From contig NZ_AP017378.1 in assembly GCF_003966735.1 (NCBI RefSeq), positions 3,058,905 through 3,122,904 of the forward strand: 64,000 bases of DNA, given 5' to 3'. The notes beneath the pieces are model-generated. The model was given only the letters and a program-made list of their open reading frames with translations, did no database searches and was not told where the DNA came from. This DNA is from Desulfovibrio ferrophilus. Lineage in GTDB: Bacteria; Desulfobacterota; Desulfovibrionia; Desulfovibrionales; Desulfovibrionaceae. This document shows positions 12,803 to 56,573 of the stretch, one piece after another; positions within the stretch are counted from its first letter, which is position 1; every line of letters begins with the position of its first letter. The position numbers were made by a program, and so were the translations under genes.

Positions 12803-12806
12803 TTTT

Positions 12807-12835: not shown

Positions 12836-12841
12836 GGGTGT

Positions 12842-16753: not shown

Positions 16754-16759
16754 GGAGCT

Positions 16760-17197: not shown

Positions 17198-17208
17198 AGG
17201 GAGCAACC

Positions 17209-17574: not shown

Positions 17575-17583
17575 GGATACATC

Positions 17584-35368: not shown

Positions 35369-35370
35369 GT

Positions 35371-36624
35371 TCAACCCTTGCTTCTGCATTCTTCTATGAC
35401 CTCGGTAATCCAGCTTTCAAGCCGGTTGAACAGATTGTTTCGCCCAAATTCCTGTCTGGCATAAGCACGTCCCTTGTGACCCATCGCATGGCGTTGTTCA
35501 GGTGACAGCCCAGCGAGTTTTGCTATGTTTTGGGCCAGAGTATTTGAATCACCTGCATTGCAGGTCGTTCCTCCACCAGATTCAGTGATCACTCTTGCCC
35601 CTTCTCCATCCAGCATTGCCAGCAGTGGTTTTCCAGCAGAAAGGTAGGACTGGACCTTGCCCGGAATGGTGAGGGAAAAAATCGGAGCTGATCGCAATGT
35701 AACGAGTAATGCATCGGCTGTCGAAAAAATTTCAGGCATTGCCGACGATGGGAGCTGCCCCAGAAAGCTGAAATGCTTGCTGAGGTTGCGTCGCTTGACT
35801 TCAGACTTTACCCATGGAGCCATTCGTCCGTCACCGGCAATTATCCATTGAACGTGTGGCGACTCTTTCGCCACAATTTCGGCAGCATCAAGAATTGCCG
35901 GAAAATCCTGGGCCGCGCCGATGTTCCCTGCAAAGACGATTCTGAATTCACTTGCTCGGTCTGGCTTGTTCTTGTTGCCAGGTTTTTTGGAATGGCAGGC
36001 CGCTTCATATTCGGCTTCCATCCAGTTCGGGAAGTACATGATTTTGTCCAGCGGCACGCCGAGTGCTGCAACATTTGTCTCGAACGCCCTTGATTGCACA
36101 AGAACTCGGGAGCAGCGTGAGTATATCCACCGAACTCCGCGCTTGACCAGTCCGAGGATCAAAGGAGAACGAATCGCCCCGGTTGCTGAAAGTGACTCCG
36201 GCCAAAGGTCCAGAACCCAAAAAAGAATGGGCGCCTTGTAACGCCACTTAGCCAGAGCCGCAGGAAAACCGACGGTGACCGGTGAAGTTTGAAATACGAA
36301 GATTGCGTCAAAATGCTCATGCCTCCCCATGCGGAAGAAGACTCCCCATGAGGCTGTGACCACGAACGAGAGATAATTCAGGATTAAGTGGAGGTTTCCT
36401 CCCTTGCCGCGTGGGATAAGGGGCACCCTGAGGATTCTTGCGCCGGACAGATGCTCCTCTTTGGGACCATTCCAGCCATAACCGGGGAAGAATTGACCTG
36501 AGGGGTAGTTGGGTTGGCCAGTCAGGACAGTGACGTTGTGTCCTCGTTCGCCAAGGCCTTGGACCAGGTCGTTGATTCGAAAATTTTCGGGCCAAAAGTA
36601 TTGGCTGACGATGAGAATATTCAT
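35371..36624 (-). CDS. wbuB: WbuB-like GT4 glycosyltransferase, probably L-FucNAc transferase
   Basis: A 417-residue GT-B enzyme. N-terminus MNILIVSQYFWPENFRINDL is that of the WbuB group; the donor side shows FAGNIGAAQDFP and AGKPLLAMLDGEG. In enterobacterial O-antigen clusters wbuB directly neighbours fnlABC and transfers L-FucNAc; the same order is seen here. I use the ATG at 36624, which matches the family start, instead of the longer frame. Specificity is inferred from context. Confidence 0.8.
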   Translation of the reverse strand: MNILIVSQYFWPENFRINDLVQGLGERGHNVTVLTGQPNYPSGQFFPGYGWNGPKEEHLSGARILRVPLIPRGKGGNLHLILNYLSFVVTASWGVFFRMGRHEHFDAIFVFQTSPVTVGFPAALAKWRYKAPILFWVLDLWPESLSATGAIRSPLILGLVKRGVRWIYSRCSRVLVQSRAFETNVAALGVPLDKIMYFPNWMEAEYEAACHSKKPGNKNKPDRASEFRIVFAGNIGAAQDFPAILDAAEIVAKESPHVQWIIAGDGRMAPWVKSEVKRRNLSKHFSFLGQLPSSAMPEIFSTADALLVTLRSAPIFSLTIPGKVQSYLSAGKPLLAMLDGEGARVITESGGGTTCNAGDSNTLAQNIAKLAGLSPEQRHAMGHKGRAYARQEFGRNNLFNRLESWITEVIEECRSKG

Positions 36625-36879
36625 GGAAAAGGAATTCCTCTTCAGAGGGATATTGGTCACCTTTGCGAAAGCATATCGCATAAGATCCAAGCTGTTACCG
36701 AACAGAATCGCTCATGAATGCATTGCTCTTGGACTATTTGTCCCCTTAGAGCAGGTGTGATGTCAGCCGTTTGTCTTTGAGGCTATTCTGTTGGAATACG
36801 CAAAACCCCTTGATGATAGATTGACTTAACGCGTCTTGTCTCATCAGAAGCTGCGCTGAGGCCTTTGGTACTATCGCTG

Positions 36880-38043
36880 CTATGTCCATTTGACCTTTGG
36901 CATGATGGCATCTTCGCGGATGCGCCCCTTGTGTCTTGCCACGAATTCCAGCATGCGCGCGACTTTGTCCGAGGTCAGCAGGTGCGGTTCCAGCCCCAAA
37001 TCCTTTAGTCCGGTGTAAGTCGGGTTGTAGTAGTGCTCTTCGGCCTCGCGGCGGGGATTTTCGATGTTTTTCACCGTGACGTCGATGCCTGCCTGCTTTC
37101 CGCCTTCCAATATCAGTTCGGCAAGTTCATTGACAGTGAAGGTTTCCGTGATCTGGTTGTAGACCTTGTATTCACCGGCCTGAGCGGGATTCAGAATGGC
37201 CAGTTCCACGCAGGCCAGGGTGTCGCGCAGGTCCAGATAGCCTCGGGTCTGGCCTCCCTTGCCGTACACTGTCAGGGGGATGCCTGCCACCGCCTGAACC
37301 AGGAAGCGGTTGACCACCGTGCCGAAGACATCATCGTAATTGAAGATGGTGGCCAACTGTTCGTCATCGCTTTGGTCGGTGAAAATGCCGTAGACAGGCC
37401 CCTGGTTGAGGTCCGTTACCCGGATATCCCAGATGCGGCAGTAAAAATAGAGCATGTCGCCGTCCTGAGCCTTGGTCAGGTGGTACAGCGAGCCGGGAGT
37501 CTTGGGGTACAGGAAGCGATGACTGCGCCCCTTGTAGTCCACATCCAGATAGCCTTCCTCGATGTCGATGTCCGGAGTGCCGTAGACGCCCATGGTGCCC
37601 AGCTTGACGATGTGGCAGGCCGGGTTGAATTCCTTGACCGCCTGAACGAGGTTCATGGTGCTCATCAGGTTGTTGGACAGGGTGAAGGCGGCCTTGTCGC
37701 GGTCCATCATGGAGTATGGAGCCGAAGGCTGTTCGGCATAGTGGACGACTGCGTCGGGTGTCCAGTCCAGACCAAAGGCCTTGCCCGTGAAGCAGTCCTG
37801 CATGAACTCCCATACGCAGAGGTCACCCTCGGCACAGTGGACGGTATGGTTGCTGGCAGCCTGCCAGAGACGAGTGCGTTCGCCAAGGTCTGGCACCGGA
37901 AGGAGCGGAGGCGATTGCAGTTCGTCACAGGCCTTGCGGCGGAAATAGTTGTCCACAACAGCCACGCTGTGGCCCTGAGCGCTCAGGTGCATGGCCGTAG
38001 GCCAGCCAAGATAGCCATCACCACCGAGAATCAGAATATTCAT
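36880..38043 (-). CDS. UDP-sulfoquinovose synthase homologue (SQD1/SqdB family)
   Basis: A 387-residue NAD-dependent enzyme with long identity blocks to SQD1: GGDGYLGWPTAMHLS at the NAD site, HYAEQPSAPYSMMDR, KLGTMGVYGTPDIDIEEGY (Thr150), YHLTK (Tyr187/Lys191), TDLNQGPVYG, YGKGGQTRGYLD and RREAEEHYYNPT. SQD1 converts UDP-glucose and sulfite to UDP-sulfoquinovose. Catalytic Thr, Tyr and Lys are all present. In plants and cyanobacteria the product becomes a membrane lipid; in archaea (Agl3) it enters glycans. Here it lies within a polysaccharide locus with no SQDG synthase nearby, so a sulfonated glycan sugar is the likely product. Confidence 0.85.
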   Translation of the reverse strand: MNILILGGDGYLGWPTAMHLSAQGHSVAVVDNYFRRKACDELQSPPLLPVPDLGERTRLWQAASNHTVHCAEGDLCVWEFMQDCFTGKAFGLDWTPDAVVHYAEQPSAPYSMMDRDKAAFTLSNNLMSTMNLVQAVKEFNPACHIVKLGTMGVYGTPDIDIEEGYLDVDYKGRSHRFLYPKTPGSLYHLTKAQDGDMLYFYCRIWDIRVTDLNQGPVYGIFTDQSDDEQLATIFNYDDVFGTVVNRFLVQAVAGIPLTVYGKGGQTRGYLDLRDTLACVELAILNPAQAGEYKVYNQITETFTVNELAELILEGGKQAGIDVTVKNIENPRREAEEHYYNPTYTGLKDLGLEPHLLTSDKVARMLEFVARHKGRIREDAIMPKVKWT

Positions 38044-38052: not shown

Positions 38053-39129
38053 CTAGGGCCAGTATCGTTCGTCGGGATGGTCCGCGTGGTCAAAGGGCAG
38101 TTCCAGCAGATTGTTGTCCAGCAGGAAGCGTTCGATTTCATTCTGGGACATGAGGGCCTCCTCTGCAGAGATGTAGGGCCGGTCCACGGAGTTCGAAACA
38201 ACCCCTTCGTACTCATAAGAGATATCTTCGTACAGGCTGCGGAAAGCCGGGACAACAGCGAAATAGTCAGTAAGCTCCTGGGATCGCCTGGTTTCTTCGT
38301 GGCTCATGAGCTCTTCATAGAGTTTTTCCCCGGGCTTCATTCCGATGATCTCAATGGGGATATCTTGGGCCTTGTACCCGAACTGCGGAGCCAGTAGTCG
38401 GATCATGACTTCGGCCAGGTCGCGGATGCGGATGACGGGCATCTTGGTGATGAAGACTTCTCCCCCCTGAGCCATGCTGGCGGAATCGATCACCATGCGT
38501 ACGGCTTGCGGGATGCTCATGATGAAGCGGGTCATCTTGTCATCTGTCAGGGTCACGGGGCCACCTTTCTTGATCTGCTCAGTGAAGATGGGGACCACGG
38601 AGCCCCGTGAGCCAAGGACGTTACCGAAACGGGTGGAAGCAAAGACAGGGCCGTTGCCACGACGGTTGCTGTTTGCGGCTGTCATCAGACGTTCACCCAT
38701 GAGCTTGGAAGTACCCATGACGCTGGTGGGGTTCACGGCTTTGTCGGAACTGGTGAAGATAACCTTCTCCACGCCATTGTCTGTGGCGGCCTGGATCACA
38801 TTGCTCATGCCAAGGATGTTTGTTTGTACGGCCTCCATGGGAGAGCGTTCGCACAGGATGACATGCTTGAACGCGGCCACATGAAAGACGATATCCACAC
38901 CTCGCATGGCGCGGGAGAGTTTCTCATGATCACGAACGTCGCCAAGGAAGAAGCGGGCGATGCCTGCCGGGGCAAAGCGCTGTTCGAGGAAAAACAGTTC
39001 ACTTTCGTTGTTGTCGATGCCGATCAGTTCGCCAACGGGGAAGGTTTCCACAAGCTGGCGTACGAGTTCATTGCCAATGGTGCCACAGCAGCCGGTGACG
39101 AGGACTCTGCTTTTCGTCAAGTCTGTCAT
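38053..39129 (-). CDS. UDP-HexNAc 4,6-dehydratase-family enzyme (CapD/FlaA1 short form)
   Basis: A 358-residue NAD-dependent polysaccharide biosynthesis protein: VTGCCGTIGNELV, AFKHVILCE, TSSDKAVNPTSVMGTSKLMGE (Met/Lys catalytic type), FGNVLGSRGSVVPIF, GMKPGEKLYEEL. This group acts on UDP-N-acetylhexosamines to give 4-keto-6-deoxy sugars. No membrane domain. Nine bases before the SQD1-like gene, so probably co-translated. It could feed a second deoxyamino sugar, but no aminotransferase is seen nearby. Confidence 0.82.
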   Translation of the reverse strand: MTDLTKSRVLVTGCCGTIGNELVRQLVETFPVGELIGIDNNESELFFLEQRFAPAGIARFFLGDVRDHEKLSRAMRGVDIVFHVAAFKHVILCERSPMEAVQTNILGMSNVIQAATDNGVEKVIFTSSDKAVNPTSVMGTSKLMGERLMTAANSNRRGNGPVFASTRFGNVLGSRGSVVPIFTEQIKKGGPVTLTDDKMTRFIMSIPQAVRMVIDSASMAQGGEVFITKMPVIRIRDLAEVMIRLLAPQFGYKAQDIPIEIIGMKPGEKLYEELMSHEETRRSQELTDYFAVVPAFRSLYEDISYEYEGVVSNSVDRPYISAEEALMSQNEIERFLLDNNLLELPFDHADHPDERYWP

Positions 39130-39171: not shown

Positions 39172-40155
39172 TTACTTTCGATTCAAAAACCAGCGGAATG
39201 TTTTTTCCAATCCGTTTCTAAACTCGATGGCTGGAGACCATTGAAGTATTTTGCGAGCTTTGGAAATGTCGGAGAAGTTGCGCTGAACTTCGCCTTGTCG
39301 CACGGGTGCGTGCTCTAGATTGACGTCAAGGGAGGCAAGGTCGTGGGCTAGAGTCTTGAGGGCTTGGGCTAGTTCGAGGACCGTGTGCTCCCTGTGAGTG
39401 GCGATCTGGAAGGCCTCACCTCCCACCTCGGGAGTGGTCAAGGCTGCCCAGATTGCACCTGCTAGGTCCTCCACGGCGATGAAGTCCCGAGTTTGAGTCC
39501 CATCGCCGTAGATGGTGAGGGTTTCACCAGCCAGGATTTGACGGATGAATAGCGCGGCGACGCTTCCTTTCTTGGTGGAATAGGGGCCGTAGACATTGCC
39601 GAACCTGAGGCAGGTTGTCTCTATGCCGTATGAGCCGTGATAGGCAGAGCAATAGGCTTCGCCGCAGAGCTTGCTGGCTCCATAAGGCGAGATGGGGCGA
39701 GCGACCATTTCTTCATGGATGGGCGGTTCCTGTTCGCCTAGAGGGGCGCCAGAAGAGGCTAACACAAACCGCTTAACTCCGTTGATGCGACAGCCCTCAA
39801 GATAATTGAACGTACCCATGACATTCATTTCGCAGTCCCGGCGCGGGTTTTCGATGGACGGGATGACCCCTGTGTTTGCGGCTAGGTGGACGACTCCGTT
39901 GGCACCGGCACATGCAACTTGGGCGAGATCATGGTCAAGAATGTTACCGGTGATGAGGTCAACGCCAGGGGTCCATTGTTGAGGAACCGATTTTCCACAA
40001 GGCCTGAATTCGCAGACCTGCGACAAGTCTTCGGGGCTGCCTACGCTCAGGTCGTCTACAATACGGATGCAGACGTCAGCGTTGTTTTCGAGAAGATAGT
40101 GGATGAGATTGACGCCGATGAAGCCACAGCCACCTGTGATGAGGATATTAATCAA
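39172..40155 (-). CDS. NAD-dependent sugar-nucleotide epimerase/dehydratase (GalE/WbpP-like)
   Basis: A 327-residue extended short-chain enzyme: ITGGCGFIGVNLIHYL NAD motif, HLAANTGVIPSIENP, SSGAP in the Ser position, and YGASKLCGE (Tyr/Lys pair), then LRFGNVYGPYSTKKGSVAALF. It is most like UDP-hexose 4-epimerases of polysaccharide loci. Substrate cannot be fixed. Forms part of a run of three sugar-nucleotide genes. Confidence 0.82.
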   Translation of the reverse strand: MINILITGGCGFIGVNLIHYLLENNADVCIRIVDDLSVGSPEDLSQVCEFRPCGKSVPQQWTPGVDLITGNILDHDLAQVACAGANGVVHLAANTGVIPSIENPRRDCEMNVMGTFNYLEGCRINGVKRFVLASSGAPLGEQEPPIHEEMVARPISPYGASKLCGEAYCSAYHGSYGIETTCLRFGNVYGPYSTKKGSVAALFIRQILAGETLTIYGDGTQTRDFIAVEDLAGAIWAALTTPEVGGEAFQIATHREHTVLELAQALKTLAHDLASLDVNLEHAPVRQGEVQRNFSDISKARKILQWSPAIEFRNGLEKTFRWFLNRK

Positions 40156-40204: not shown

Positions 40205-41494
40205 TTATTTAATATGTTGTTTTCGCAACATCAATAGCTCAAGATGAGCTATTGATAAAATTGACCATAAAGTATAGCTCATCATTATATTTGAAAATAA
40301 TCCAATAAAAAAAACAGAGGCTAGGTTTGCTATCCATATGGATGCAGTGTTGCGCTGTTCTTGGCTTTGAGATTGAATATAGAACGTTGTGAACCTGTAT
40401 ATTGGTAATACCCATAGAAGAATTAGTAGTGATGCTAGAGCTAATCCATGTGATCCAGCAACCGATAGATACGTGTTGTGTATTGTAAAGTTGTTGAGAT
40501 AGTATTCTTTTTCGAATTCTATTCCTCGACCGAATAGTGGGTTGCTTTTTATTGCATCAATGGCAATTCGATTTTGATCTATTCTATGTTTTAATGATCT
40601 TTGGCTTTTAGATATTTGATCTATGCTGTTTGAAATAGTGTTGTTATATTTTGCTGGTACTATAGACGCTATCATGATTATGAGTGGAATAGCTATGGCT
40701 AGCATGCGAAAATTAGCTGTTTTTAAGCGTGATGTGAGAATGAAGTATAATAATATAAAGATATAAATGATAAGCGCTGCGTATGAAGATCTAAATCCTG
40801 ACATGCCAATTGCTATTGTTAGGAGTACTATTGATAAAGTAAAAAGTTTTTTGTAACAGTATTCTTTTTTGAATAAGTACTGTGTGGCAATTGCGATTGA
40901 TCCAATGCAAAGAATACCATATCCGCCTCTTTTTCCAATGAGTCCGGTTGATGCTTGAAAGAGCTGGTTTGTAAGCAATAATGGCCGTTTCATCATCACT
41001 TGGGTAGGTTCGAATGTTTCAAGCCCCATAAAGAGATGAAGTAATGCTGTTACTGCAGCTGCGATTCCACCAGCAAAAAAAAGAATCTTAGGTAGATGGG
41101 TGTGTGTGGAATTATTTTCTTGAGAGTGGATATGTGAGACGACAATGAAAAATATTGCTCCGATACCGATTGTTCCAGAAGTGTATGCAATGCTACCTAT
41201 TCGGGATGAAATCCCGTGAGGTTCATTGAGGTATGAATGTATGATTGATTGTGTGAAGAGTCCCGTGGATAAAAGAAATGCAAATATGAATCCTGCGTTC
41301 CAGCATAAGGATATAATCTCTTGTCTTGAAAGTGATGAGAGTACAAGAATAGAAAATATTACGATGCAAATAGAAGGTGGTGACCAGTGAATTCCAAGTC
41401 GTAAAATAATGAATTCTTGAAATACAATGCAAAGAAAAGAGAGGAGTCCAAATAAAATTGTTTTATTTGTTCTTATTGAATTGAAGGTGCTCAT
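40205..41494 (-). CDS. O-antigen polymerase/ligase-like membrane protein
   Basis: A 429-residue, very AT-rich gene encoding about eleven membrane helices. The large periplasmic loop holds KSNPLFGRGIEFEKEYYLNNFTIHNTYLS, the Wzy_C pattern (split here over a turn), with the characteristic H-N-x-Y-L near residue 330. Low GC and rare-codon use compared with neighbours is usual for Wzy polymerases, which are exchanged between strains. Complements the similar protein at 30231. Confidence 0.75.
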   Translation of the reverse strand: MSTFNSIRTNKTILFGLLSFLCIVFQEFIILRLGIHWSPPSICIVIFSILVLSSLSRQEIISLCWNAGFIFAFLLSTGLFTQSIIHSYLNEPHGISSRIGSIAYTSGTIGIGAIFFIVVSHIHSQENNSTHTHLPKILFFAGGIAAAVTALLHLFMGLETFEPTQVMMKRPLLLTNQLFQASTGLIGKRGGYGILCIGSIAIATQYLFKKEYCYKKLFTLSIVLLTIAIGMSGFRSSYAALIIYIFILLYFILTSRLKTANFRMLAIAIPLIIMIASIVPAKYNNTISNSIDQISKSQRSLKHRIDQNRIAIDAIKSNPLFGRGIEFEKEYYLNNFTIHNTYLSVAGSHGLALASLLILLWVLPIYRFTTFYIQSQSQEQRNTASIWIANLASVFFIGLFSNIMMSYTLWSILSIAHLELLMLRKQHIK

Positions 41495-41506: not shown

Positions 41507-42682
41507 TTAACTGCAGTGTGTGGACCTGTATATTTGATTGTATGTTTCAGCTTGTTTGCGTGCGACAATATTCACGTCCAAATGAGAAAGTATCGCTTGT
41601 CTGGCTGCATTTCCTCTTCGTGTGCGTAGATTTTTGTCTGATGCGAGATTGAGGACCAGCTCAGCTAGCTTGTCTGGGTCCCTGGGGGGGGCAATGGCTT
41701 CTTTTTTTTCTGAGTCAAGGAAGCGTGCGACGTCTCCTACGTCAGTCGAAACAACTGGCTTGGCCATACTCATCGCTTCCCAGACCGATAGAGGCGAGGC
41801 CTCAGAGTCCGAGGCGCAGACATAGATATCGGCAGCTTCAAGTACTGCTCTTACATCTTTTTGGAAGCCTATAAAAGTTATATTGGTCATTTCGTTCTGA
41901 GCAATCAGCTTGTCGAGTCTCTTTTTGTATTGTTTTTGAGATTCGTGAGTCTTGCCAATAATAAAAAAATGCATGTCGCCACGTTTTTGGGATGCTTTAT
42001 GGGCCATCCGGATGAATGTTTCCAGCCCTTTGGCAGGATTGATCGAACCGCAGGTTACGACTTTTAAGCCTTGCCAATCTGAGATGCTTTTGCAGGGAGT
42101 TGATAGGCCTGGGGCAAAGTGTTTCGTGTCAACTGGCGCCTGAACCTCGTAGGTGGGGAGATTGCTTGGTGCCATACTGCTTAAATAATACTGCTTCACG
42201 CGGCTCGCAGCAACGATCAATGCGCTTGGAAGAACTCTAGCTAGGGCGCGGAAAGCAATCCGGAAGGGGAGTGGAAGGCCGGTGTCATTCAGATGCCAGA
42301 CGGAGGGGGTGCCAGCAAGTCGTGCTGCAATAAGTCCTTTGATTTGCCAGATGCCGCCACTGCAATGGATAATGTCGAAGCGCTGACGCCGGAAGAATTT
42401 GGTCAGCTTTAGCACTTCAGTGGGAAAGAAGAAGATATAGCGCGCCAGAAGTCGCTTGTCTCTAGTCAAGCGATGAAGTGGAAATAGCCTGAAGTTGATT
42501 TTGCGTTCCTCAAGTAGCTGTATAAAATCTGCGCTGTCCATCTCAGGCAGCACTACCGTTGTTTCAACTCCGTGCGTAACGAGTCTGTGGGCAATCTCAG
42601 CGATGCGGACTTGCGGCCCGCCGAGACGCCCTTCTTCGATAATATTGCAGACTCGTAAATTGAATTTATTGGACTGATGCAT
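41507..42682 (-). CDS. GT4-family glycosyltransferase
   Basis: A GT-B enzyme of about 391 residues. N-terminus CNIIEEGRLGGPQVRIAEIA is the acceptor-side glycine loop; the donor side has GSINPAKGLETFIRMA, FIGFQKDV and the E-x7-E region SDSEASPLSVWEAMSMAKP. The ATG at 42682 is preceded by AAGGA at about ten bases; an ATG at 42742 would add 20 residues without a ribosome site. Donor and acceptor unknown. Confidence 0.82.
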   Translation of the reverse strand: MHQSNKFNLRVCNIIEEGRLGGPQVRIAEIAHRLVTHGVETTVVLPEMDSADFIQLLEERKINFRLFPLHRLTRDKRLLARYIFFFPTEVLKLTKFFRRQRFDIIHCSGGIWQIKGLIAARLAGTPSVWHLNDTGLPLPFRIAFRALARVLPSALIVAASRVKQYYLSSMAPSNLPTYEVQAPVDTKHFAPGLSTPCKSISDWQGLKVVTCGSINPAKGLETFIRMAHKASQKRGDMHFFIIGKTHESQKQYKKRLDKLIAQNEMTNITFIGFQKDVRAVLEAADIYVCASDSEASPLSVWEAMSMAKPVVSTDVGDVARFLDSEKKEAIAPPRDPDKLAELVLNLASDKNLRTRRGNAARQAILSHLDVNIVARKQAETYNQIYRSTHCS

Positions 42683-42847
42683 ATTGTATTGTTCCTTGAG
42701 AGCTGGTGCGTCCCCCACGACAGAGTTTGAATATGCACTCATGAGTTTAGCATGCTGCTTATAACTGTAGTCAAGGATAACTACAAGCTACAGGTTCGTA
42801 GTGCCACGCTTTGTTTGTCCTGGGCTTTTGGATTGTTGGTGGGTAGT

Positions 42848-44092
42848 CTACGGTTGGGTGAGCATCCATTTTTTTATTCTGGCGTATTGACTGGTGAGAA
42901 AAGACTGAGTTCTTGGGTATCGAAGCAGGTAGCCTTTGACTCCTGGGAGAGGCGACTTTATCGGTCCTTGATAGGTGGATCCTGCCATCAAGATGTTTTC
43001 AATGGCTTGGCAGAACTTTTGAGTGCAGGAGAAGTCGCTGCCCCCAGCGATTGCTTTTTCAATAAACTCTAGGTCTTTATAAGGTTGTCTTTCTTGCTCA
43101 GAAAAAGATTGGAGGATTTTATCCTGATTCAGGGGGGTTAATCCATTGTATTGCTGAAATACACCGAATTGGCCCATGTAGGGTTCACTTAGGACTACCA
43201 CGGGAATACCGAGTTGGAGTGGTTTGAGTAATAGCGTTGATGGAGCACCGATGACGTATTTTGCCCTAGCAATCAGATTGTTTGTCTCAGTTTCGTCCAT
43301 GGTGACTCGAACAGTCTCTGTCTCAAGGTGTTTGAAAGCGTATTCTTGTGAAGCTTTTGATTTTTCCTTGATGACGATCGATATGTTTTTATTCCGAGCG
43401 AGAGTATAAATGCCTGATTGTTCGATGACTTCGTCGGTCATGGCTTTGAAGCGCCCCTCTTTGCCCGAGAGTTTTGTCCACGAAGGAACTAAGAGGATAT
43501 GCTTTTTGTTTTGCAGCAGCTTATGGTCAATGGTGCCGAGTTGGTCATTGGAGGGGAGTCCTACGGCAAAGAGGCGTTTCTCAAGATTTGGATTGTGTTT
43601 GAGGAGGCAAGAGTGGTCGTAGTTGCCGATACACAACGCGTAGTCATAGCAGATGCCTAAATTTAAGGCCTGTCGCTGTAGTCCTGCAGTGTCGTTCTCA
43701 ACGCAGCCCTCCTGACAACCAACGACTGGTATGCCTCGTCTCTTGAGAATGCTGTAGAGCAGGGGGGTTCCCCACCGTAGTTTACCCACGTTTTCATCGA
43801 AAATTGCAAGATCGATAGGCAGGTGTTTGGTGGCCTGCTTAAAATCAATGCTATATGTGTCAGCCGTGTTGGAATGAGCCTGTGAGGCCTCTCCGAGATT
43901 GGTGGCGCCAGCCTTGAGCAATGCCCTGATCATGTCGGGCCTGGTGTCGACGCCTGCCCCGCCGAAAGGAAAATGGGATGCCATTTTGCGATACTGGAAA
44001 AAATACATCTGATGATTTGTGCAGAGTTCGAGGACTGCAGGTAGAATATTTGCTGCAGCCCTGGGATAGCTCATGCAGAAAAGGATATTCAT
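42848..44092 (-). CDS. GT-B-fold polysaccharide biosynthesis protein of uncertain family
   Basis: A 414-residue soluble protein. The two-domain layout and the C-terminal part (LVPSWTKLSGKEGRFKAM, IVIKEKSKAS, IGAPSTLLLKPLQLGIPVVVLSEP) resemble CDP-glycerol glycerophosphotransferase-like or UDP-GlcNAc 2-epimerase-fold proteins. No clear donor motif can be assigned. It lies between the MBOAT gene and a GT4 gene, so it probably builds or modifies the same glycan. 165 bases separate it from the next gene. Confidence 0.6.
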   Translation of the reverse strand: MNILFCMSYPRAAANILPAVLELCTNHQMYFFQYRKMASHFPFGGAGVDTRPDMIRALLKAGATNLGEASQAHSNTADTYSIDFKQATKHLPIDLAIFDENVGKLRWGTPLLYSILKRRGIPVVGCQEGCVENDTAGLQRQALNLGICYDYALCIGNYDHSCLLKHNPNLEKRLFAVGLPSNDQLGTIDHKLLQNKKHILLVPSWTKLSGKEGRFKAMTDEVIEQSGIYTLARNKNISIVIKEKSKASQEYAFKHLETETVRVTMDETETNNLIARAKYVIGAPSTLLLKPLQLGIPVVVLSEPYMGQFGVFQQYNGLTPLNQDKILQSFSEQERQPYKDLEFIEKAIAGGSDFSCTQKFCQAIENILMAGSTYQGPIKSPLPGVKGYLLRYPRTQSFLTSQYARIKKWMLTQP

Positions 44093-44140
44093 GCTACTTC
44101 CTGTGTAGAGGCTATAAAGCTTAGTTAGATGCTGAAGGTT

Positions 44141-45535
44141 CTAAAATTGGGCGTATATGAAAGGAGAAAAATGCGTCGGGAAATATACAATTGTTAGCCA
44201 AATCATGGAGCAAAGGGCGAATGGAGTATACCATGCTTTTTCTGGTAATAGAAACAGGCTTTTTGATGTGTTAACAAGTACATGGAAAGCAACAGTCCCA
44301 ATGATGATAAAAATGACAAATGGATGAACCCATTGAACCCCATCTTGCAGTGTGAACATGCCCCGCATTATTCCTAGTGCTTCACTTAAAGAACTAGATC
44401 TGAATAAAATCCAACCGATGTGAACGCTAAACAATGTCGTCAAAATCTTAACTGTATTTTTTAATCGTGTCTGAAATTTAGTACTTGGAAGAGGTTTGAA
44501 ATTAATATTGCGATGCACAGAGAGAAGTATCCCGTGGTATCCTCCCCATATGACAAAGAGCCATGTTGGTCCATGCCACAGGCCGCAGAGTAACATCGCT
44601 GTAAGCAGGTTGACGTGGGTGCGTAGTGGTCCTTTGCGGTTTCCTCCAAGAGGAATATAGAGGTAGTCTCTGATCCAAGTAGAGAGCGAGATGTGCCAGC
44701 GACGCCAAAACTCAGAAATATTTGTCGCAAGATACGGGAAATTGAAGTTTGTATTGATTCGGATTCCGAGCATGCGGGCTAAGCCGATGGCCATGTCTGA
44801 ATACCCTGAAAAATCAAAGTAGATCTGAAGAGTATAGGCCGCTGACGCTATCCAAAGGGTTAGTCCATCAAAGGCGGTTGCGTTGGGCCATATGAAATTG
44901 ATGTAGGCTCCAAGATGATCAGCTAGGAATACTTTTTTAAACATGCCGATGGCGAAAAGTCTGAATCCCGCAGAAAGATCGTTGATGTTAGGGGCTGGTA
45001 GATTGTTGAACTGCGGAAGAAAAGTTGTTGCGCGTGTTATTGGTCCTGCTGCAATTTTAGGGAAGAATGTAAAATAAGTTGCATAGTCTATATAGCTAGT
45101 GCAAGGCGAAATCTTTTTTTGAGAGACATCAATAATATAGCTAATGGATTGGAATGTGGTAAACGATATTCCGAGTGGAATAATTATATTAAGAGTTCTG
45201 CTATCTATTTGAAGATCAGTGAAGAGTGCTAGTGCTGATCCAATGAAAAAATTATAGTATTTAAAAAAGCCAAGAATGAGAAGTGGGACTGCTACTCCAG
45301 CTATAGTTAGCCGTTTTGTGCATGGCCCATTGCTGTTGTTAATAGCTTTTGCAATTATGAAGTCAGAAAAGGCTTGAAGTAATATCAGTCCAAGAAGTCG
45401 AACATCCCAGTAGGCATAGAACAGTGCATTTGAAAAGAGAATTACCCGAAGCCTTAGTGGGGTGCTCTTGACCCAGGTGCATAATCCTAAAACGCAGAAG
45501 AAGAAAATGATGAATTCAATCTGTGTGAACTGCAT
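44141..45535 (-). CDS. MBOAT-family O-acyltransferase (AlgI-like), second copy
   Basis: A 464-residue polytopic membrane protein: YFDFSGYSDMAIGLARML, WRRWHISLSTWIRDYLYIPLG (split by the family's helix), and LWHGPTWLFVIWG with the active histidine near residue 315. It transfers an acyl group to the exported glycan. Clearly paralogous in family to the protein at 9997, but the sequences differ throughout and this one is much more AT-rich. Its start overlaps its partner gene by 20 bases. Confidence 0.9.
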   Translation of the reverse strand: MQFTQIEFIIFFFCVLGLCTWVKSTPLRLRVILFSNALFYAYWDVRLLGLILLQAFSDFIIAKAINNSNGPCTKRLTIAGVAVPLLILGFFKYYNFFIGSALALFTDLQIDSRTLNIIIPLGISFTTFQSISYIIDVSQKKISPCTSYIDYATYFTFFPKIAAGPITRATTFLPQFNNLPAPNINDLSAGFRLFAIGMFKKVFLADHLGAYINFIWPNATAFDGLTLWIASAAYTLQIYFDFSGYSDMAIGLARMLGIRINTNFNFPYLATNISEFWRRWHISLSTWIRDYLYIPLGGNRKGPLRTHVNLLTAMLLCGLWHGPTWLFVIWGGYHGILLSVHRNINFKPLPSTKFQTRLKNTVKILTTLFSVHIGWILFRSSSLSEALGIMRGMFTLQDGVQWVHPFVIFIIIGTVAFHVLVNTSKSLFLLPEKAWYTPFALCSMIWLTIVYFPTHFSPFIYAQF

Positions 45536-46745
45536 GGTGTATGGATTGGTTCAAATGGATGTTTTTCGTGATCGCTTGGGCAATTAACAAATGTCCGAGA
45601 GCATTCAAGTGCCCACTGTCTGGGCGAGAGTTTGCGAATCCCCTTGGGAAGCCCTTTCCCGATTGATACCCTGATATGAAGAGATTGTTCATTGTGATTG
45701 TTGAGAAGCCGCAATTCGTGGCGAGATTCAAGAATGCTGTTGCCAGTGTGTCATCGTCATCTTGCATGGTAACGAGGCCGCAGCGGATTCGTGGTACTTT
45801 GGGACAGTATATAATTGTGATTGGCCGGTTGCTGGTCGCCTTGAGCTTAGACAGGATAAAGGCCCAAGGCTCAAGAGCTTCTTCAATTGAGGGAAGCCCC
45901 ACAGATGGGAGGGGTTCTCCAAAGCCAAATATACGAGTACTTGATGGGCTTTCGGGTTGTTTAGGAGGTTGGTCTTGAACTGCCAGTAGCTGTTTAAATT
46001 TGTCTGTATATCTTAACGAAGATGTCTTGATTGTGGATACGGCGTAATATGCTTTTTTTATGGTTTTCCATAGAAATTCAAGGCGATAGTTTGCGATGAA
46101 TCTCTTGAGTTGTTTGCGTAATCCAAAAGGTGAATTTGGGTCTCGATTGGGGTCTTGCGAGGCATCAATATGCAAATAAGGCTTGGAGAGGAATTTCGCA
46201 TGCCGGGCTGTTGGCTGATCTGGCAATGTATCTCTGATGTCGGTAAGGACGATATAGTGTGCCGTGATGCCTGGGATGGCTTGCTCGACGACTGGAATGT
46301 CGAGGCAAAAGTCGGCCATGCTGAGTCCGGAGGATGCAAGGTTGAGCCCTGATACCCTGTGAGATGTTTGCTTAAGGGATAGTTGGGTGACGCGGTTGGC
46401 AACTTTTTTCTTGTCGTTGATTTGTAGCCCTTCAATGTGTGAGTCGCCCCATATGGCGACGTGGGGTGCAGGGAGTGATGAGAGTTGTAGGCCGCCGGGC
46501 ATCCCGAAATCACCAAAAGAGCTAGTCGCCCAGCCCTCGAAACGTTGTGTGAAAACTGACCCAGGCATCCGAATGTGTTTCCCGAGGATTTGACTGAATT
46601 GGTATAGAGCAAGAGAGTTGTGAAAGACGAGGGAGATGCCCCATATGAATAGAAGTGAACATAAAAAACTTAAAACCCATTTCGACAGCATTCTGAGAGA
46701 TGATTTAGGCTTTATTGATTTTTGTGAATAGGGCTGAGAATTCAT
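45516..46745 (-). CDS. SGNH-fold acyl-transfer partner of the MBOAT protein
   Basis: A 409-residue protein with an N-terminal membrane anchor (about residues 25-45) and a periplasmic SGNH domain: IWGDSHIEGLQI supplies the catalytic serine (block I) and DSGHLNALGHLLIAQAI the Asp/His pair (block V). The catalytic blocks are cleaner than in the pair at 9997-12596. Translationally coupled to the MBOAT gene, so the two form an export-acylation module for this locus. Confidence 0.82.
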   Translation of the reverse strand: MNSQPYSQKSIKPKSSLRMLSKWVLSFLCSLLFIWGISLVFHNSLALYQFSQILGKHIRMPGSVFTQRFEGWATSSFGDFGMPGGLQLSSLPAPHVAIWGDSHIEGLQINDKKKVANRVTQLSLKQTSHRVSGLNLASSGLSMADFCLDIPVVEQAIPGITAHYIVLTDIRDTLPDQPTARHAKFLSKPYLHIDASQDPNRDPNSPFGLRKQLKRFIANYRLEFLWKTIKKAYYAVSTIKTSSLRYTDKFKQLLAVQDQPPKQPESPSSTRIFGFGEPLPSVGLPSIEEALEPWAFILSKLKATSNRPITIIYCPKVPRIRCGLVTMQDDDDTLATAFLNLATNCGFSTITMNNLFISGYQSGKGFPRGFANSRPDSGHLNALGHLLIAQAITKNIHLNQSIHHAVHTD

Positions 46746-46757
46746 CTTTAAAAATGC

Positions 46758-47648
46758 CTAAAGGGTTTGTCCGAATATGGAAAACTGAGCGCAAGTGGTC
46801 AGTCTATGTTGAACATGTTCTAGATTGCGGAGGTATAGAACGTTGCCGCCAATTTTCATTCCATCGGTGGACAGGGATACGGTTCGCGATGTGTTGTCGT
46901 ACTGATAAGGTAAGAATCCATAGGATCTAATGAGTTCATCAATCGCAGCATTTGACGAGCCATATTTTAGGGCATGTTCCTTTAGCTCAATAATGATAGC
47001 GCATAATTCTTGAGAAGCCAGTGTGTTGCTTGCTCCTGTCAGAGCGTTATACTCAAAGCCCTCGATGTCCATTTTTATAGCTGCAGGAGCTGAGCCCTGA
47101 AGAATGGAATCGAGAGTGTCAACCGGTACGGCTGTGGATGGAGTGCTGCTATTTGTGTTGTTTATGACTCGGTTGCTTGCGCCATTATCGACCGAAAAGT
47201 TGAGAGTTTCTTTCTTGTTGCCAACACCCATATTGTACGCAGTGACTTTGTCTTGAATGGTGTTGATTGCAACGTTGTCCAGCAGTTTTGCAAAAGTGCG
47301 GGGTACAGGCTCAAAGCTGATTGTTTGAGCTCCTGCTGCTGCACTTGCCAAGACTGTATAAGCTCCCGCATTGGCCCCTACGTCCAAAAAAATATCTTCT
47401 TCACGCAGGAAGCGAAGCAGAAAGCTCATGTCCGCATAATCGTGGAGCCCGGAATAGATGCAGCCAGTAAGTCCTGTGTCCCCGGGAGCTACCAGCAGTC
47501 GAGCCTCGTTGATCCATGGGATAGCGACCTTGCCCGGGGCAATTCGACTGCCTAGCTGCCATCGCAGGTATCTGACTAAGGCGTCGACGGCATGCCCCTG
47601 GTTGAAGGGATTCTGGAGGATGCTGCGAATTGTTCGGTGAATTTTCAT
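46758..47648 (-). CDS. FkbM-family methyltransferase
   Basis: A SAM-dependent methyltransferase of about 296 residues. SAM motif I is DIFLDVGANAGAYTVLAS, motif II SFEPVPRTFAKL, and AIKMDIEGFEYNALTGA is the FkbM acidic block. FkbM enzymes O-methylate sugars in glycan loci. The ATG at 47648 (MKIHRTI) is used; a TTG at 47765 would add 39 residues of poor quality. Neither has a good ribosome site. Stop lies 12 bases before the SGNH gene. Confidence 0.82.
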   Translation of the reverse strand: MKIHRTIRSILQNPFNQGHAVDALVRYLRWQLGSRIAPGKVAIPWINEARLLVAPGDTGLTGCIYSGLHDYADMSFLLRFLREEDIFLDVGANAGAYTVLASAAAGAQTISFEPVPRTFAKLLDNVAINTIQDKVTAYNMGVGNKKETLNFSVDNGASNRVINNTNSSTPSTAVPVDTLDSILQGSAPAAIKMDIEGFEYNALTGASNTLASQELCAIIIELKEHALKYGSSNAAIDELIRSYGFLPYQYDNTSRTVSLSTDGMKIGGNVLYLRNLEHVQHRLTTCAQFSIFGQTL

Positions 47649-47771
47649 ATTGGTAGGTGTTATTCTAGGGTGAATGCCATTGAGGGCAAGGAAATCAGAC
47701 AAGTGGTTGATAGATCGGAATAATATCGAAGTATACGCATCAGGTGTGGCCAAGTCTAGTGTCAAACATGC

Positions 47772-48638
47772 TTAGCGAGGGGCGGCTATTGTTTTAATGA
47801 TTTGGGATGCAGTGGAACCGATTTTGGGGCTCAGATGAAAGGAGGCGCCACCGAGTTGTTCAAGGGCGACTTCTCGATCATGTTCACTTAGCGTGAGTTT
47901 CATTTCCGAGGAGTTGAGGCGATGGGTTTGCTCAATTAGCCCTGTGCCCCGCAAAAATCTGACCAATTGATTTCCCCCTGGCATTTGCTCAAGCAATACT
48001 CTGGTGGTGCGCATGACTGTACTTAGGGCTTTGCTTTTTGAGGGGGGCCTGTCCTTGGCATACTGGTGATTCATGATTGCCGATGGCGGGGTATGCTCTG
48101 TGCTGACGCCTAGGAATGTGAAGATATGGTGTAATTCATCTGTTGGTGAAGTCTGAAAGGTTTGAAAATTAGCTATATATATGGATTTTTTGGGGAATAG
48201 GCTCTCGCAGCGCTTTAGGTGGTTGTCGTATCTGCTGTCGCGCAGCAGCATGGCGTCTGATTCCATGGCTTGGATAAAGCTAGGGGTTCCACTGTAGCTT
48301 CCAGAACGTATTTTTAGTGCGTAATGATTAAACATGCGATCAATTGGATCACGATAGACAAGTATAATTTGTACGTTCGGTAGGTTTTTTGAAATTCGTT
48401 CAAGAGTACCCGGTGTGCCTACATAGTCAGGAGTGACTTCGCCGATAGCCTTGTGTTTTGGGCCCGCTTTTGAAAAATGCGAAGCATACCATGCAATGCC
48501 CTTGTCAAACTGTCTGTCAAAGAAATGAAGTTGTTTTTCTTCGGGAAGAAAGATTTCCGGGTGCGTGCGCAGCACGGCGTGCAGCCAAGTGGTCGCGCAC
48601 CGCGGGGGGCCGATGATAAGAAAATTGGGGAGGGTCAT
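47772..48638 (-). CDS. PAPS-dependent carbohydrate sulfotransferase
   Basis: A 288-residue soluble sulfotransferase of the heparan-sulfate type. The 5'-phosphosulfate loop is IIGPPRCATTWLHAVL at residues 8-23 and the 3'-phosphate motif is ILVYRDPIDRMFNHY near residue 95, with the usual EKQLHFFD and GEVTPDY in between. It should transfer sulfate from PAPS to a glycan hydroxyl. Within a sulfate reducer, which makes APS in bulk, sulfation needs only an added APS kinase, not seen here. Stop is about 120 bases before the FkbM start. Confidence 0.88.
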   Translation of the reverse strand: MTLPNFLIIGPPRCATTWLHAVLRTHPEIFLPEEKQLHFFDRQFDKGIAWYASHFSKAGPKHKAIGEVTPDYVGTPGTLERISKNLPNVQIILVYRDPIDRMFNHYALKIRSGSYSGTPSFIQAMESDAMLLRDSRYDNHLKRCESLFPKKSIYIANFQTFQTSPTDELHHIFTFLGVSTEHTPPSAIMNHQYAKDRPPSKSKALSTVMRTTRVLLEQMPGGNQLVRFLRGTGLIEQTHRLNSSEMKLTLSEHDREVALEQLGGASFHLSPKIGSTASQIIKTIAAPR

Positions 48639-48663
48639 GATCTGGAGCCTTTGGTTTTGACTG

Positions 48664-49860
48664 CTACTGTTGAGTTTTTAACGTGGGGTATCCACGACAG
48701 GTCAGGGCATGATTAATGGCCTGAATGTGGCCCTGGATCATTGTGCTCACAGTTAATCTAGTCTCAGCATACCGCGCGCAATTGTCGCTCATGAAGTGTC
48801 GTTTAGCTAGGCATTTCAGAACATTTTCAGCGAGTGTCTCAGCCTGGAGAGTATCAGAAAAGCGGCCAGTTAGACCATGGGTGATGTAGTCAACCTCAGG
48901 GGCATGGATTGTTCCCGGAGAGTCTGGGGCCCAAGGGCGGCTGGTGACAATAGGGAGGCCAAGGCAGAAGGCATGGTTAACCGCGAGGCCAATATGACCT
49001 GGATTGAGCAGTATGTCGCTGGCAAACAGATAAGAGGCCGATTGAGCCCAGTCGTCAATATATCCGGTGAAGTGGATATCTTCAAGCCCTGCTTGGCGGG
49101 CGCGTTGCTCAATTTCGAGCCTAAGGGGGCCGTCTCCGATTATAATGGCCCCGCATTTTATTCCCTTTTTGTGAAGAGCATCAAGCGTATCTTGAATTAA
49201 GTCGGGGCGCTTATTTTGGACCAATCGTCCGATGTATGAAACGTACGGAAGGTCTGGCTTGAGGCCTAAACGTTTGCGCACGGTGCTGCGTCCTTCAGTC
49301 TCCAAAGTGCGTCGCAAATTGATTAGGACATCGCTATCCAAAGTGTTTCGTCCAACGAACAGTTTGCTTGGGGCAACGATGTCGCATAGTTCGGCTCGGG
49401 ATTGGTCTGTATAGCAGACAAAGGCGTCGCAGGCGCGCAGCATGGCCCTGTGAATGTAGTCATATGGATGTTGGCTATTTGCTAGCGTCCTTGATCTTGA
49501 GCGGCCATGGCCCCTGAGAACAAGAGGAATATTTTGTATCTTACAGTGCAGAACGAGTGGGTACAGAGCGGTGAATCGAGGATTTTGAGAGGCGATGATT
49601 GCAGCTGGGCGTCCGTACTTTTTGAAAGGGGCTGTAAACGGCTGGTGCATGAGTTTTTGTCCCAAGAACCATCGGTTGTGAACGGCAAGAGTCTCGAAAG
49701 GCAACGCATGGTGGTCAGAGTGGAAGCTGTCCTTTCTGGCATGACCATGGATGATAACCAGTTGTCCCTCCAGAGCTTCATTCAATCGTTTCCAGATGGG
49801 AATCCGGTAATGAGGGATGAAGGGTTGATAGAGAAAGAATTTTTTGTCGTGTTCAGCCAT
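48664..49860 (-). CDS. GT4-family glycosyltransferase
   Basis: A GT-B glycosyltransferase of about 398 residues: YQPFIPHYRIPIWKRLNE at the N-terminus, LVLRGHGRSRSR, then SYIGRLVQNKRPDLI, IIGDGPLRLEIEQRA and FASDILLNPGHIGLAVNHA. The ATG at 49860 has GAGGA six bases upstream and overlaps the stop of the upstream gene by eight bases. Donor unknown. Confidence 0.85.
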   Translation of the reverse strand: MAEHDKKFFLYQPFIPHYRIPIWKRLNEALEGQLVIIHGHARKDSFHSDHHALPFETLAVHNRWFLGQKLMHQPFTAPFKKYGRPAAIIASQNPRFTALYPLVLHCKIQNIPLVLRGHGRSRSRTLANSQHPYDYIHRAMLRACDAFVCYTDQSRAELCDIVAPSKLFVGRNTLDSDVLINLRRTLETEGRSTVRKRLGLKPDLPYVSYIGRLVQNKRPDLIQDTLDALHKKGIKCGAIIIGDGPLRLEIEQRARQAGLEDIHFTGYIDDWAQSASYLFASDILLNPGHIGLAVNHAFCLGLPIVTSRPWAPDSPGTIHAPEVDYITHGLTGRFSDTLQAETLAENVLKCLAKRHFMSDNCARYAETRLTVSTMIQGHIQAINHALTCRGYPTLKTQQ

Positions 49861-51076
49861 TGATATCCTCGCGTCCCGTGTCATCCAGAATATCATTTAC
49901 AAGGCGGCCATGCTGTTTCCAGGCTGGTGTTGTGAGGATATTGTGAACATACTCGATACCGTTTTGGGACAGTGTCTTATAGAGATCGGGCTTCTCGATG
50001 AGCATTTTCAATGCGCAGCAGAAAGTTTCTTCGGAATCGGGGGGGACCAGCAGAGCGGTTTTATGGTCTTGGAGTTGAAGGGGGATACCTCCTACGCTAG
50101 TGGAGACCACTGGTAGGCCATGCCGCATGGCTTCATATATAACTCGTGGAAACCCTTCATTGTGAGAGGATATAACGAGTGCGTCCGATTCAGAATAGAT
50201 GTTGTTCAGTTTATTTTTATCTGAGATATATCCATGAAATTTGTAGTGGCAATTTTTGTCTGTATTCAGGATGTTTCTGAGAGTTTGTTCTTCCGGGCCA
50301 GCGCCAACGAGGTGGAGTTCAGCTTCAATGTTGGCCCCAGTGACAAGTGAACGAAAGGCTCTAGCCAGAAGAGATAAATTTTTAATGGGGATAAAGCTAC
50401 CTACATAGAGAAATCTGAAACGCCGGGGAGGATTCTCCTTAGGTGTTTCTGGGTATGGAGTGGCATGGTTGGAGGTCTCAATATCAACCATTGGGGCCGT
50501 GCGGATTACTTGGGGATGTTTGGCGCTGGTCTGCTTGTAGACTTTTTCTCCAGCACAAATGACGGCCTTTGCCCGACGGATACAATAGTTGGCTCCCCAA
50601 GCATAATAGAGCAGCCTGAGGGTCCTGCCAAGGCTCTTCCCCGGTAATGCATGCCCAGCGTTTTCTCTCCAGTCTGAAGCGAGATATAGGACGAGATGTT
50701 TTGGTCTGGCCAAAAGGACCATCAGCGGGACATAGCTGTTGGGAATGTGTGCAAGGACGCAGGTCTCTTCTTGGCGAACCAGTACCCGCAGTTGTTTTAT
50801 TTCTGATAGAAAGTGACTCATTTTCGAGAGCAGGTTGGGACGAGAGGGCGACAGGAGCGGGAATAGGCCAACTTCTTGCGTAAGCTCCGTTTGCCAGCGC
50901 GGGGATTGCTCCGAGACTTGCATGATTTTGGAGCAAAAGAGGACAGAGTCAAAAAGTGTTGCGAGCCCTTTGAGGTAGGCATTGACGTTGCGATGCAAAA
51001 AGGATTTGTCGTCTTGCTGAACGACGGCTCCCTTAAATATAAGGAGCTTGCGGAGAGAGCTTCCTTTTTGGGTCAT
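49853..51076 (-). CDS. GT4-family glycosyltransferase
   Basis: A 407-residue GT-B enzyme with RFLYVGSFIPIKNLSLLARAF, LHLVGAGPEEQTL and SHNEGFPRVIYEAMRHGLPV on the donor side, the last being the E-x7-E retaining-GT4 motif. AGGA lies eight bases before the ATG. Transcribed just after neuA and coupled to the next glycosyltransferase. Confidence 0.87.
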   Translation of the reverse strand: MTQKGSSLRKLLIFKGAVVQQDDKSFLHRNVNAYLKGLATLFDSVLFCSKIMQVSEQSPRWQTELTQEVGLFPLLSPSRPNLLSKMSHFLSEIKQLRVLVRQEETCVLAHIPNSYVPLMVLLARPKHLVLYLASDWRENAGHALPGKSLGRTLRLLYYAWGANYCIRRAKAVICAGEKVYKQTSAKHPQVIRTAPMVDIETSNHATPYPETPKENPPRRFRFLYVGSFIPIKNLSLLARAFRSLVTGANIEAELHLVGAGPEEQTLRNILNTDKNCHYKFHGYISDKNKLNNIYSESDALVISSHNEGFPRVIYEAMRHGLPVVSTSVGGIPLQLQDHKTALLVPPDSEETFCCALKMLIEKPDLYKTLSQNGIEYVHNILTTPAWKQHGRLVNDILDDTGREDING

Positions 51077-56529: not shown

Positions 56530-56573
56530 GCGACCTTGTGGGGTGGCTGGCAACAGTATTGTGAGTAGTATTT

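Follow-up and report, generated by a model that had tools for sequence, protein, structure and literature searches.

A substantial share of the organic sulfur cycle runs through sulfosugars. The genome of Desulfovibrio ferrophilus raises the question of which sugar is formed by a homologue of UDP-sulfoquinovose synthase (SQD1) that is situated among polysaccharide genes. This homologue, designated SQD1L, occupies positions 36880..38043 of the window (the whole analysed stretch of 64,000 nucleotides). It is an ORF of 387 aa on the minus strand; the plus-strand reading of 36880-38043 is interrupted by a stop. The initial annotation ascribed SQD1 function to it and proposed that sulfoquinovose is incorporated into a surface glycan. 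A 2026 review attributes the biosynthesis of sulfoquinovose to a single enzyme acting on UDP-Glc, whose product is used in sulfolipids and in archaeal N-glycans (PMC12890257).

SQD1L and the reference enzymes

SQD1L aligns with Arabidopsis SQD1 from end to end (440 bits, phmmer E 1e-130), and 192 of the 378 aligned residues are identical (51%); the next solved family reaches no more than 49 bits. The AlphaFold2 model of SQD1L (pLDDT 87) is superimposed on 1i24/1qrr with a TM of 0.94 and rmsd of 1.8. Both the search and the model indicate a whole-length SQD1 fold with extended SDR architecture, and the homology proposed at the outset is thus well founded. SQD1L is the sole full-length match in its own 3.7-Mb genome, the two others being short and weak; a copy with 89% identity is present in the only further genome of its genus. 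The NCBIfam model NF041015 (UDP-sulfoquinovose synthase) gives SQD1L 444.8 bits, which is under the curated cut-off of 575. This cut-off is narrow (1 of 14 control genomes is above it), and the miss was given little weight as an argument against family membership.

The three catalytic residues noted earlier are all present. The SDR triad T150, Y187 and K191 corresponds to SQD1 T145, Y182 and K186, and T150 M151 G152 with Y187 and K191 agrees with the [ST]MG...YxxxK motif taken from the available text of PMC8987622. As proof of function, the triad, though truly present, was rejected as insufficient, since Agl3 T144A retains full activity and the triad Thr is therefore dispensable (PMC4388408). 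According to the excerpts of the same study, the alanine mutants of Agl3 H95, R101, M145, Y182 and K186 are inactive and the activity of E147A and Y148A is impaired, all activities being expressed as UDP-Glc-5,6-ene formed. This compound is an intermediate of Agl3, to which sulfite is added afterwards, and UDP-Glc and sulfite are converted by Agl3 alone in vitro (PMC4388408).

H101, M151 and Y154 of SQD1L match further residues studied in Agl3, Tyr154 being the equivalent of Agl3 Tyr148. The Arg after EQ (Arg101) that is expected of a UDP-sulfoquinovose synthase is Pro106 in SQD1L. Arg is found at this position in all three reference enzymes, namely SQD1, S. meliloti SqdB and Agl3, the R101A primer of the latter being given as AEQ-[R]-SAP in the primer table (PMC4388408). 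The ascription of SQD1 function thus holds for the family, the fold and the triad, and is weakened by the loss of Arg101 and by the insufficiency of the triad.

The position of Agl3-Glu147 (148 in SQD1) is Val153 in SQD1L. The sequence L044, which we take to be the sulfolipid-making SqdB of S. meliloti, has EQR but Val at the Agl3-147 position, and its record text describes an epimerase beside a glycosyltransferase. Val at Agl3-147 was dropped as proof of altered chemistry because S. meliloti-type SqdB has it too; there, Val together with changes at 208/267 is compatible with a sulfolipid locus. The SQD1 positions 184/208/267 presumably line the sugar pocket, and the window lineage retains L-N-D at them, i.e., N208 and D267 of SQD1.

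With SQD1, SqdB and Agl3 (EC 3.13.1.1), SQD1L shares whole-length homology, fold, the Thr/Tyr/Lys triad, the Met after Thr and the Tyr after the Glu position. It differs from them in the replacement of Arg101 by Pro and of Agl3-Glu147 by Val, in forming a separate clade and in having partner SDRs adjoining it. Agl3 of Sulfolobus acidocaldarius, which provides sulfoquinovose for N-glycans, resembles the proposed role of SQD1L in supplying a sulfonated sugar for a surface glycan and not for a lipid. Unlike SQD1L, it has both EQR and Glu147; it acts on UDP-Glc and sulfite unaided in vitro.

The glycan locus and the partner genes

The assignment of the gene to a polysaccharide locus was confirmed by the presence of Wzy_C, MBOAT, three group-1 glycosyltransferases, an FnlABC-like trio and NeuB/PseF-like genes, all on the minus strand. 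Next downstream of SQD1L is a WcaI-family-like GT4 glycosyltransferase gene (35371..36690; 125 bits at a cut-off of 276), followed by FnlA/FnlB/FnlC-like genes (34337-35389, 33219-34340 and 32095-33222), for which profile matches predict UDP-L-FucNAc supply, the first two genes being under their own cut-offs and the third above that of WecB. Upstream lies the Wzy_C membrane protein (O-antigen ligase/polymerase by domain match, 40205..41494). The rest of the glycan gene run (41507..51076) has Pfam matches for GT4 glycosyltransferases (41507-42742, 48664-49896 and 49853-51076), MBOAT (44141-45535), an FkbM methyltransferase (46758-47765) and a sulfotransferase (47772-48638); ORFs 42848-44092 and 45516-46745 have no Pfam match. 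The MBOAT gene with its neighbour (44141-46745) and the sulfotransferase gene (47772-48638) suggest that the same glycan may bear O-acyl and O-sulfate groups.

The same run is opened by genes for a PseF/NeuA-like cytidylyltransferase (51102..51818; 167 bits, cut-off 205.7) and a short NeuB/PseI-like synthase of 287 aa (53090..53953; 199 bits, cut-off 399.65). NeuB, NeuC and NeuA do not occur together in the window; NeuC is above its cut-off in the host genome only at G000:C1:2810695, about 300 kb away. A nonulosonic acid is probably present in the same glycan. Beside the locus, on the opposite strand (55369-58960, plus), there are two genes of radical-SAM type with a methyltransferase-like gene between them, named from sequence alone.

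Two further SDR genes precede SQD1L on the minus strand. PSEB (38053..39129, 358 aa) ends 9 bp before the start of SQD1L, and an AGGA overlapping the PSEB stop was recognized by eye as a possible ribosome site of SQD1L. PSEB carries the motif SSDK..M...K, with DK and Lys each in 49/49 sequences and Met for Tyr in 48/49, and thus has the [ST]DK pair, the Tyr or Met and the Lys by which UDP-GlcNAc 4,6-/5,6-dehydratases are recognized. The DK/Met motif is tabulated for the UDP-GlcNAc 4,6-dehydratases WbpM and PglF (PMC8987622, in part). The best solved match of the PSEB profile is 6BWC (370 bits, the next having 283), named in the same text as Pen, a UDP-GlcNAc 5,6-dehydratase (PMC8987622). Like the UDP-GlcNAc dehydratases Pen, PseB, FnlA and WbpM, PSEB has the DK acid/base pair and the Lys; it differs from Pen, its closest solved relative, in that the catalytic Tyr is replaced by Met at the same place, as in WbpM/PglF and the FnlA of the window, and in its linkage to SQD1L. 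The third SDR, EPI (39172..40155, 327 aa), resembles GalE and other 4-epimerases (4zrm, 158 bits) and has the motif SSGAP..Y...K with no dehydratase acid/base pair.

A separate branch of SQD1 homologues

A tree of 120 rows (quick IQ-TREE, SH-aLRT support only) contains one clade of 98 rows with Pro at the position of Arg101 in 97 and Ala in one (SH-aLRT 97). Sequences of this branch are termed P-type and the Arg sequences R-type. SQD1 falls outside the clade, as do the EQR sequences from Chloroflexota, Acidobacteriota, Actinomycetota and a single Planctomycetota MAG, and the S. meliloti-type SqdBs are far from it. Nested in the P-type clade is one of 75 rows (SH-aLRT 96, stem 0.36) that includes the window protein, its first split being formed by the window protein, the congener and L054. 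By this phylogeny, SQD1L is a member of a bacterial branch that is separate from the sampled sulfolipid enzymes.

Position 101 changed twice on the tree, and an independent-pairs test of Pro101 against PSEB comprised 2 pairs only. The residues T-M-N at SQD1 184/208/267 are found in 58/67 rows with PSEB nearby vs 3/22 P-type rows without it. Loss of the Glu at Agl3-147 is confined to P-type rows that have PSEB (6/99 rows) and is seen in none of the 76 viral P-type loci (from the best 80 of 99 viral matches); most SQD1Ls of such cassettes retain this dehydration Glu.

A survey of the order placed P-type SQD1L in 25/297 genomes. A second homologue of SQD1, with about 40% identity, occurs in 11/297 order genomes (L028-L032 and six more). 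The residues of all 25 P-type order genomes were inspected, and those of 5 of the 11 with the second homologue; the five placed members of this group fall with S. meliloti SqdB on the tree. Judging by this position, some of the order members having it may make sulfolipid.

Linkage and co-occurrence of PSEB, EPI and SQD1L

Gene neighbourhoods were compared at 80 genome loci, a non-random set as the best 80 of at least 587 in order of similarity to the window protein, with genes chosen by homology-guided ORF choice. The duplicates L133 and L135 were removed before P- and R-type loci were counted. Outside the P/R rows were L085, L088, L132 (genome) and L189 (viral); in the alignment, L085 and L088 have Pro, both with PSEB, and L132 has Ala. 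PSEB was called above 200 bits to the window protein and is 46-70% identical outside the genus.

Among the matches listed, PSEB is found at 61/82 P-type genome loci (in 60 cases on the strand of SQD1L, in 50 no more than 150 bp away) and at 0/13 R-type loci, and EPI at 33/82 and 1/13, respectively. In the sub-branch of the window, PSEB is usually directly upstream of SQD1L. A cultured bacterium with PSEB-SQD1L is Desulfatibacillum alkenivorans DSM 16219 (L061). Close PSEB is absent from 21/82 P-type genome loci among the matches listed, mostly outside the 75-row clade; for L104, which is inside that clade, 382 bases upstream only are available.

The neighbourhood bias was removed by whole-genome searches, both the order and the phylum samples of which include the window genome. 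In the order, PSEB is matched with an E value of at most 1e-60 in 94/297 genomes, and 24 of the 297 stand apart with at least 374 bits, the next best match having 234, a cut that was set after the gap had been seen. Each of these 24 also has P-type SQD1L, which occurs in 25 genomes of the order; hence 1/273 others has P-type SQD1L, namely G024, which is 85% complete. PSEB and SQD1L co-occur even where they lie apart (by about 33 kb in G167, 17 kb in G216 and 67 kb in G090), and G163 possesses two copies of each. EPI at E 1e-75 is found in 17/297 order genomes, 16 of which have SQD1L.

In the phylum, PSEB at E 1e-75 is present in 25/385 genomes. The 20 with at least 370 bits (over 294, a cut likewise set after the gap was seen) are all among the 25 with SQD1L at least 51% identical. 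Weaker matches (43-47%, 258-294 bits) occur without SQD1L in G461, G380, G345, G337 and G488; since PSEBs down to 46% count as partners elsewhere, these five may be true relatives without SQD1L. Conversely, SQD1L is found without PSEB in G659, G440, G412 and G660 (P-type) and G510 (R-type). Fisher's test gives 1.8e-34 for PSEB with SQD1L and 2.9e-19 for EPI with SQD1L in the order, and 4.2e-29 (strong PSEB) or 2e-24 (all 25 matches) in the phylum; it ignores kinship, and the values overstate independence because PSEB presence is clustered on the tree.

Judged from gene order and co-occurrence, SQD1L belongs to a conserved gene set in surface-sugar clusters, and PSEB probably works in the same pathway. 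The order CysH-SDR-PSEB-SQD1L-EPI is found in L083 and L069, which belong to two different phyla.

Some related arrangements were also encountered. In L083 (8015-8956) and L069 (7918-8904), the SDR between CysH and PSEB is a fourth one, 27-28% identical to EPI. In L288 and L290 (G659 and G412), an SQD1L with the T-M motif is beside EPI, with DegT aminotransferases in the region and no PSEB; another dehydratase may replace PSEB there.

Sulfite supply genes

Sulfite had been suggested as the sulfur donor, a suggestion strengthened by PAPS reductase genes near some relatives and by the DsrA of the host genome (616 bits, cut-off 393). CysH genes above the NCBIfam cut-off and on the strand of SQD1L were found 55 bp downstream in L072 (Histidinibacterium), 2.1 kb upstream in L069 (Anaerolineae, Chloroflexota) and 2.0 kb upstream in L083 (Saprospiraceae, Bacteroidota), with an SDR and PSEB between in the last two, and 2.3 kb upstream in L118 (a Falkowbacteria MAG), with CysD and CysN between. 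Altogether, CysH is within 10 kb at 5/82 P-type genome loci among the matches listed (55 bp, three at about 2 kb, 8.7 kb) vs a chance expectation of about 0.5/82, a rough estimate that assumes 1-2 CysH genes per 4 Mb.

In L255, a PAPS_reduct (PF01507) gene of 142 bits, for which NCBIfam does not separate CysH from CysD, follows SQD1L after 12 bp, with 91-93% identical copies in L253 and L254. Thus, 3/6 genomes from a family near the window lineage have a PF01507 gene directly after PSEB-SQD1L. The viral contigs L181, L190 and L191 have CysH-like matches (36-37%) 24 or 258 bp upstream of SQD1L; L190 and L191 share one gene, so that these three cases are 2 distinct ones. A Cys match was found at 0/16 R-type loci among the matches listed and at 0/18 FnlA/WecB control loci, a small control with two loci from one contig and one containing SQD1L. 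These associations, together with the homology, make it likely that SQD1L adds sulfite. CysN, CysD and CysC neighbours were set aside as evidence for sulfite, as they may serve sulfotransferases; such matches in L055, L096, L146 and L149 were judged weak or partial.

Sialic acid genes and viral contigs

Viral loci were taken from IMG/VR as a non-random set (the best 80 of 99 by similarity to Neu-type proteins), in which L164-L168 carry the same gene, as do L184/L185 and L175/L176. SQD1L has two or more of NeuA/B/C in its vicinity at 10/76 viral P-type loci of this set and, among the matches listed, at 7/82 genome P-type loci (4 of the 7 also with PSEB) and 0/16 R-type loci; in L148, the Neu matches are weak and on the opposite strand. 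PSEB-less P-type genes occur in viral contigs in the arrangement NeuA-SQD1L-NeuB, both flanks lying within 60 bp in L155 and L158, and in L086 and L289 in the arrangement NeuB-NeuC-NeuA-SQD1L. In L118, NeuC, one further gene, NeuA, CysH, CysD, CysN, SQD1L and NeuB follow each other, NeuC being above its cut-off and NeuA and NeuB below theirs.

To our knowledge, an SQD1-like step is absent from the known nonulosonic acid pathways. P-type genes resemble the NeuB/NeuC/NeuA pathway in standing in such NeuA-SQD1L-NeuB or NeuB-NeuC-NeuA-SQD1L runs; the window differs in that NeuB- and NeuA-like genes are in the run and NeuC is elsewhere.

In L287 (G302, about 8400-17900), NeuB-NeuC-NeuA-SQD1L is followed some 2 kb on by PSEB-SQD1L, an arrangement well suited to testing for two different sulfonated sugars. 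The IMG/VR contigs with SQD1L include L181, L190 and L191 (CysH) and L155-L159 (NeuA/NeuB); among 50,697 annotated phage records, none matches SQD1L at E 1e-30.

Proposed pathway and alternatives

From homology, residues, phylogeny, gene linkage and co-occurrence, we infer the substrate, the order of steps and the product. The explanation that we consider reasonably likely is that P-type SQD1L uses sulfite to make a C6-sulfonated sugar nucleotide for a surface glycan, in the window together with PSEB and probably EPI, in other members of the branch by itself or with these partners; where NeuB, NeuC and NeuA accompany it, a sulfonated sialic acid might result. The substrate would, on balance, be derived from UDP-GlcNAc, and the product sugar is probably N-acetylated. 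Of the initial proposal that sulfoquinovose enters a surface glycan, the glycan context persists, and the linkage to PSEB and NeuA/B/C favours another sulfonated sugar.

In such a pathway, PSEB, as a relative of Pen, would dehydrate UDP-GlcNAc to an activated intermediate of the 5,6-ene type, the GlcNAc analogue of that of Agl3. SQD1L would oxidise C4, sulfite would add at C6 and C4 would be reduced again, giving UDP-6-deoxy-6-sulfo-GlcNAc. EPI, where present, would epimerise C4 to the galacto form, and the glycosyltransferases of the locus would put the sulfonated sugar into O-antigen or exopolysaccharide.

The Pen-like relay from PSEB to SQD1L is a tentative and somewhat doubtful part of this scheme. 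It would explain the pairing of PSEB with SQD1L, the changed residues of the 75-row clade and the loss of Glu only in the presence of PSEB. The pocket argument does not apply to the window lineage, as this has L-N-D at 184/208/267, and PSEB may be unneeded for dehydration, as most cassette SQD1Ls keep the dehydration Glu. Moreover, as PSEB has Met where Pen has Tyr, it may work as a 4,6-dehydratase, and the usual product of such an enzyme is without a C6 leaving group; the relay would then fail. Alternatively, PSEB could act after SQD1L as a C5 epimerase. A more specific version is rather unlikely to hold in full: P-type enzymes as UDP-GlcNAc 6-sulfonate synthases, PSEB supplying an exo-glycal, EPI a galacto epimer and NeuC/NeuB/NeuA leading to a CMP-activated C9-sulfonated sialic acid.

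The strongest alternative, though an unlikely one, is that plain UDP-sulfoquinovose is made and that PSEB and EPI act on it later (C5/C4 epimerisation) or make a companion sugar. The 51% identity, the SQD1 fold, the triad and the conserved H101, M151 and Y154 agree with it, as do N208 and D267 of SQD1 in the window lineage; the Val at Agl3-147 is shared with S. meliloti SqdB-type proteins as well. Archaeal glycans with sulfoquinovose and sulfofucose are described in the available parts of PMC12421959 and PMC12890257. However, Arg101 is Pro across the branch (Ala in one row), yet Agl3 R101A is inactive (PMC4388408, in part), and the association with a dehydratase of UDP-GlcNAc type and with NeuC/NeuB/NeuA also argues against plain sulfoquinovose. 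A companion-sugar role of PSEB poorly explains why 24/24 and 20/20 close PSEBs co-occur with SQD1L.

It is distinctly improbable that sulfonation was lost and SQD1L became an ordinary dehydratase or epimerase in a UDP-N-acetylhexosamine pathway, e.g., of a rare deoxy- or diamino sugar, with a sulfur-free product. The absence of Arg101, the disappearance of the dehydration Glu in the window lineage, partners that are ordinary sugar-nucleotide SDRs and the missed curated cut-off for UDP-sulfoquinovose synthase are in line with such a loss. Against it stand the PAPS reductases in the P-type gene runs of L083, L069, L072, L118 and viral contigs, the PAPS_reduct-domain gene in three phylum relatives and the retention of the active-site triad, His, Met and Tyr. 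That a sulfolipid (SQDG) gene is located in the glycan locus by chance is scarcely credible: SQDG-type enzymes may exist in the order, given the second homologue and its five members placed with S. meliloti SqdB, but SQD1L is outside the SqdB clade, it has PSEB/EPI partners and the host genome is without a match to the glycosyltransferase adjoining S. meliloti sqdB (one query, no positive control).

Significance of a proposed sulfonated surface sugar

The pairing of an SQD1 homologue with dehydratase or sialic acid genes was not found described in the open-licence full-text literature, as judged from titles and abstract starts among the matches listed. For sulfofucose, a 2025 paper gives the biosynthetic pathway as unknown and states that reports of the sugar are limited to Fucaceae algae and a single archaeon (PMC12421959). 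The taurine-capped flagellin glycan of Clostridium difficile is similar to the proposed product in placing a sulfonate on a bacterial surface glycan; it differs in that the sulfonate group belongs to taurine within a peptide cap and not to a C6-sulfonated sugar (PMC5207245).

The pathway preferred here, sulfonation by P-type SQD1L with PSEB and probably EPI, lends itself to a simple test: its three enzymes are predicted to be soluble, and the substrates would be sulfite and UDP-sugars that can be bought. If it is true, this branch of SQD1 homologues, present in many phyla and linked to a dehydratase or to sialic acid genes, would add new sulfonated monosaccharides, and also a possible origin for sulfosugars broken down by bacteria. 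Should the more specific and rather unlikely version with UDP-GlcNAc 6-sulfonate synthases hold, amino sugars and sialic acids with a sulfonate group would be common but undescribed constituents of bacterial surface glycans, some of them borne by viral contigs. The recurrence of the branch with one or two partner enzymes, or with sialic acid genes, in surface-sugar clusters suggests that many bacteria coat their surfaces with sulfonated sugars that are yet to be described.
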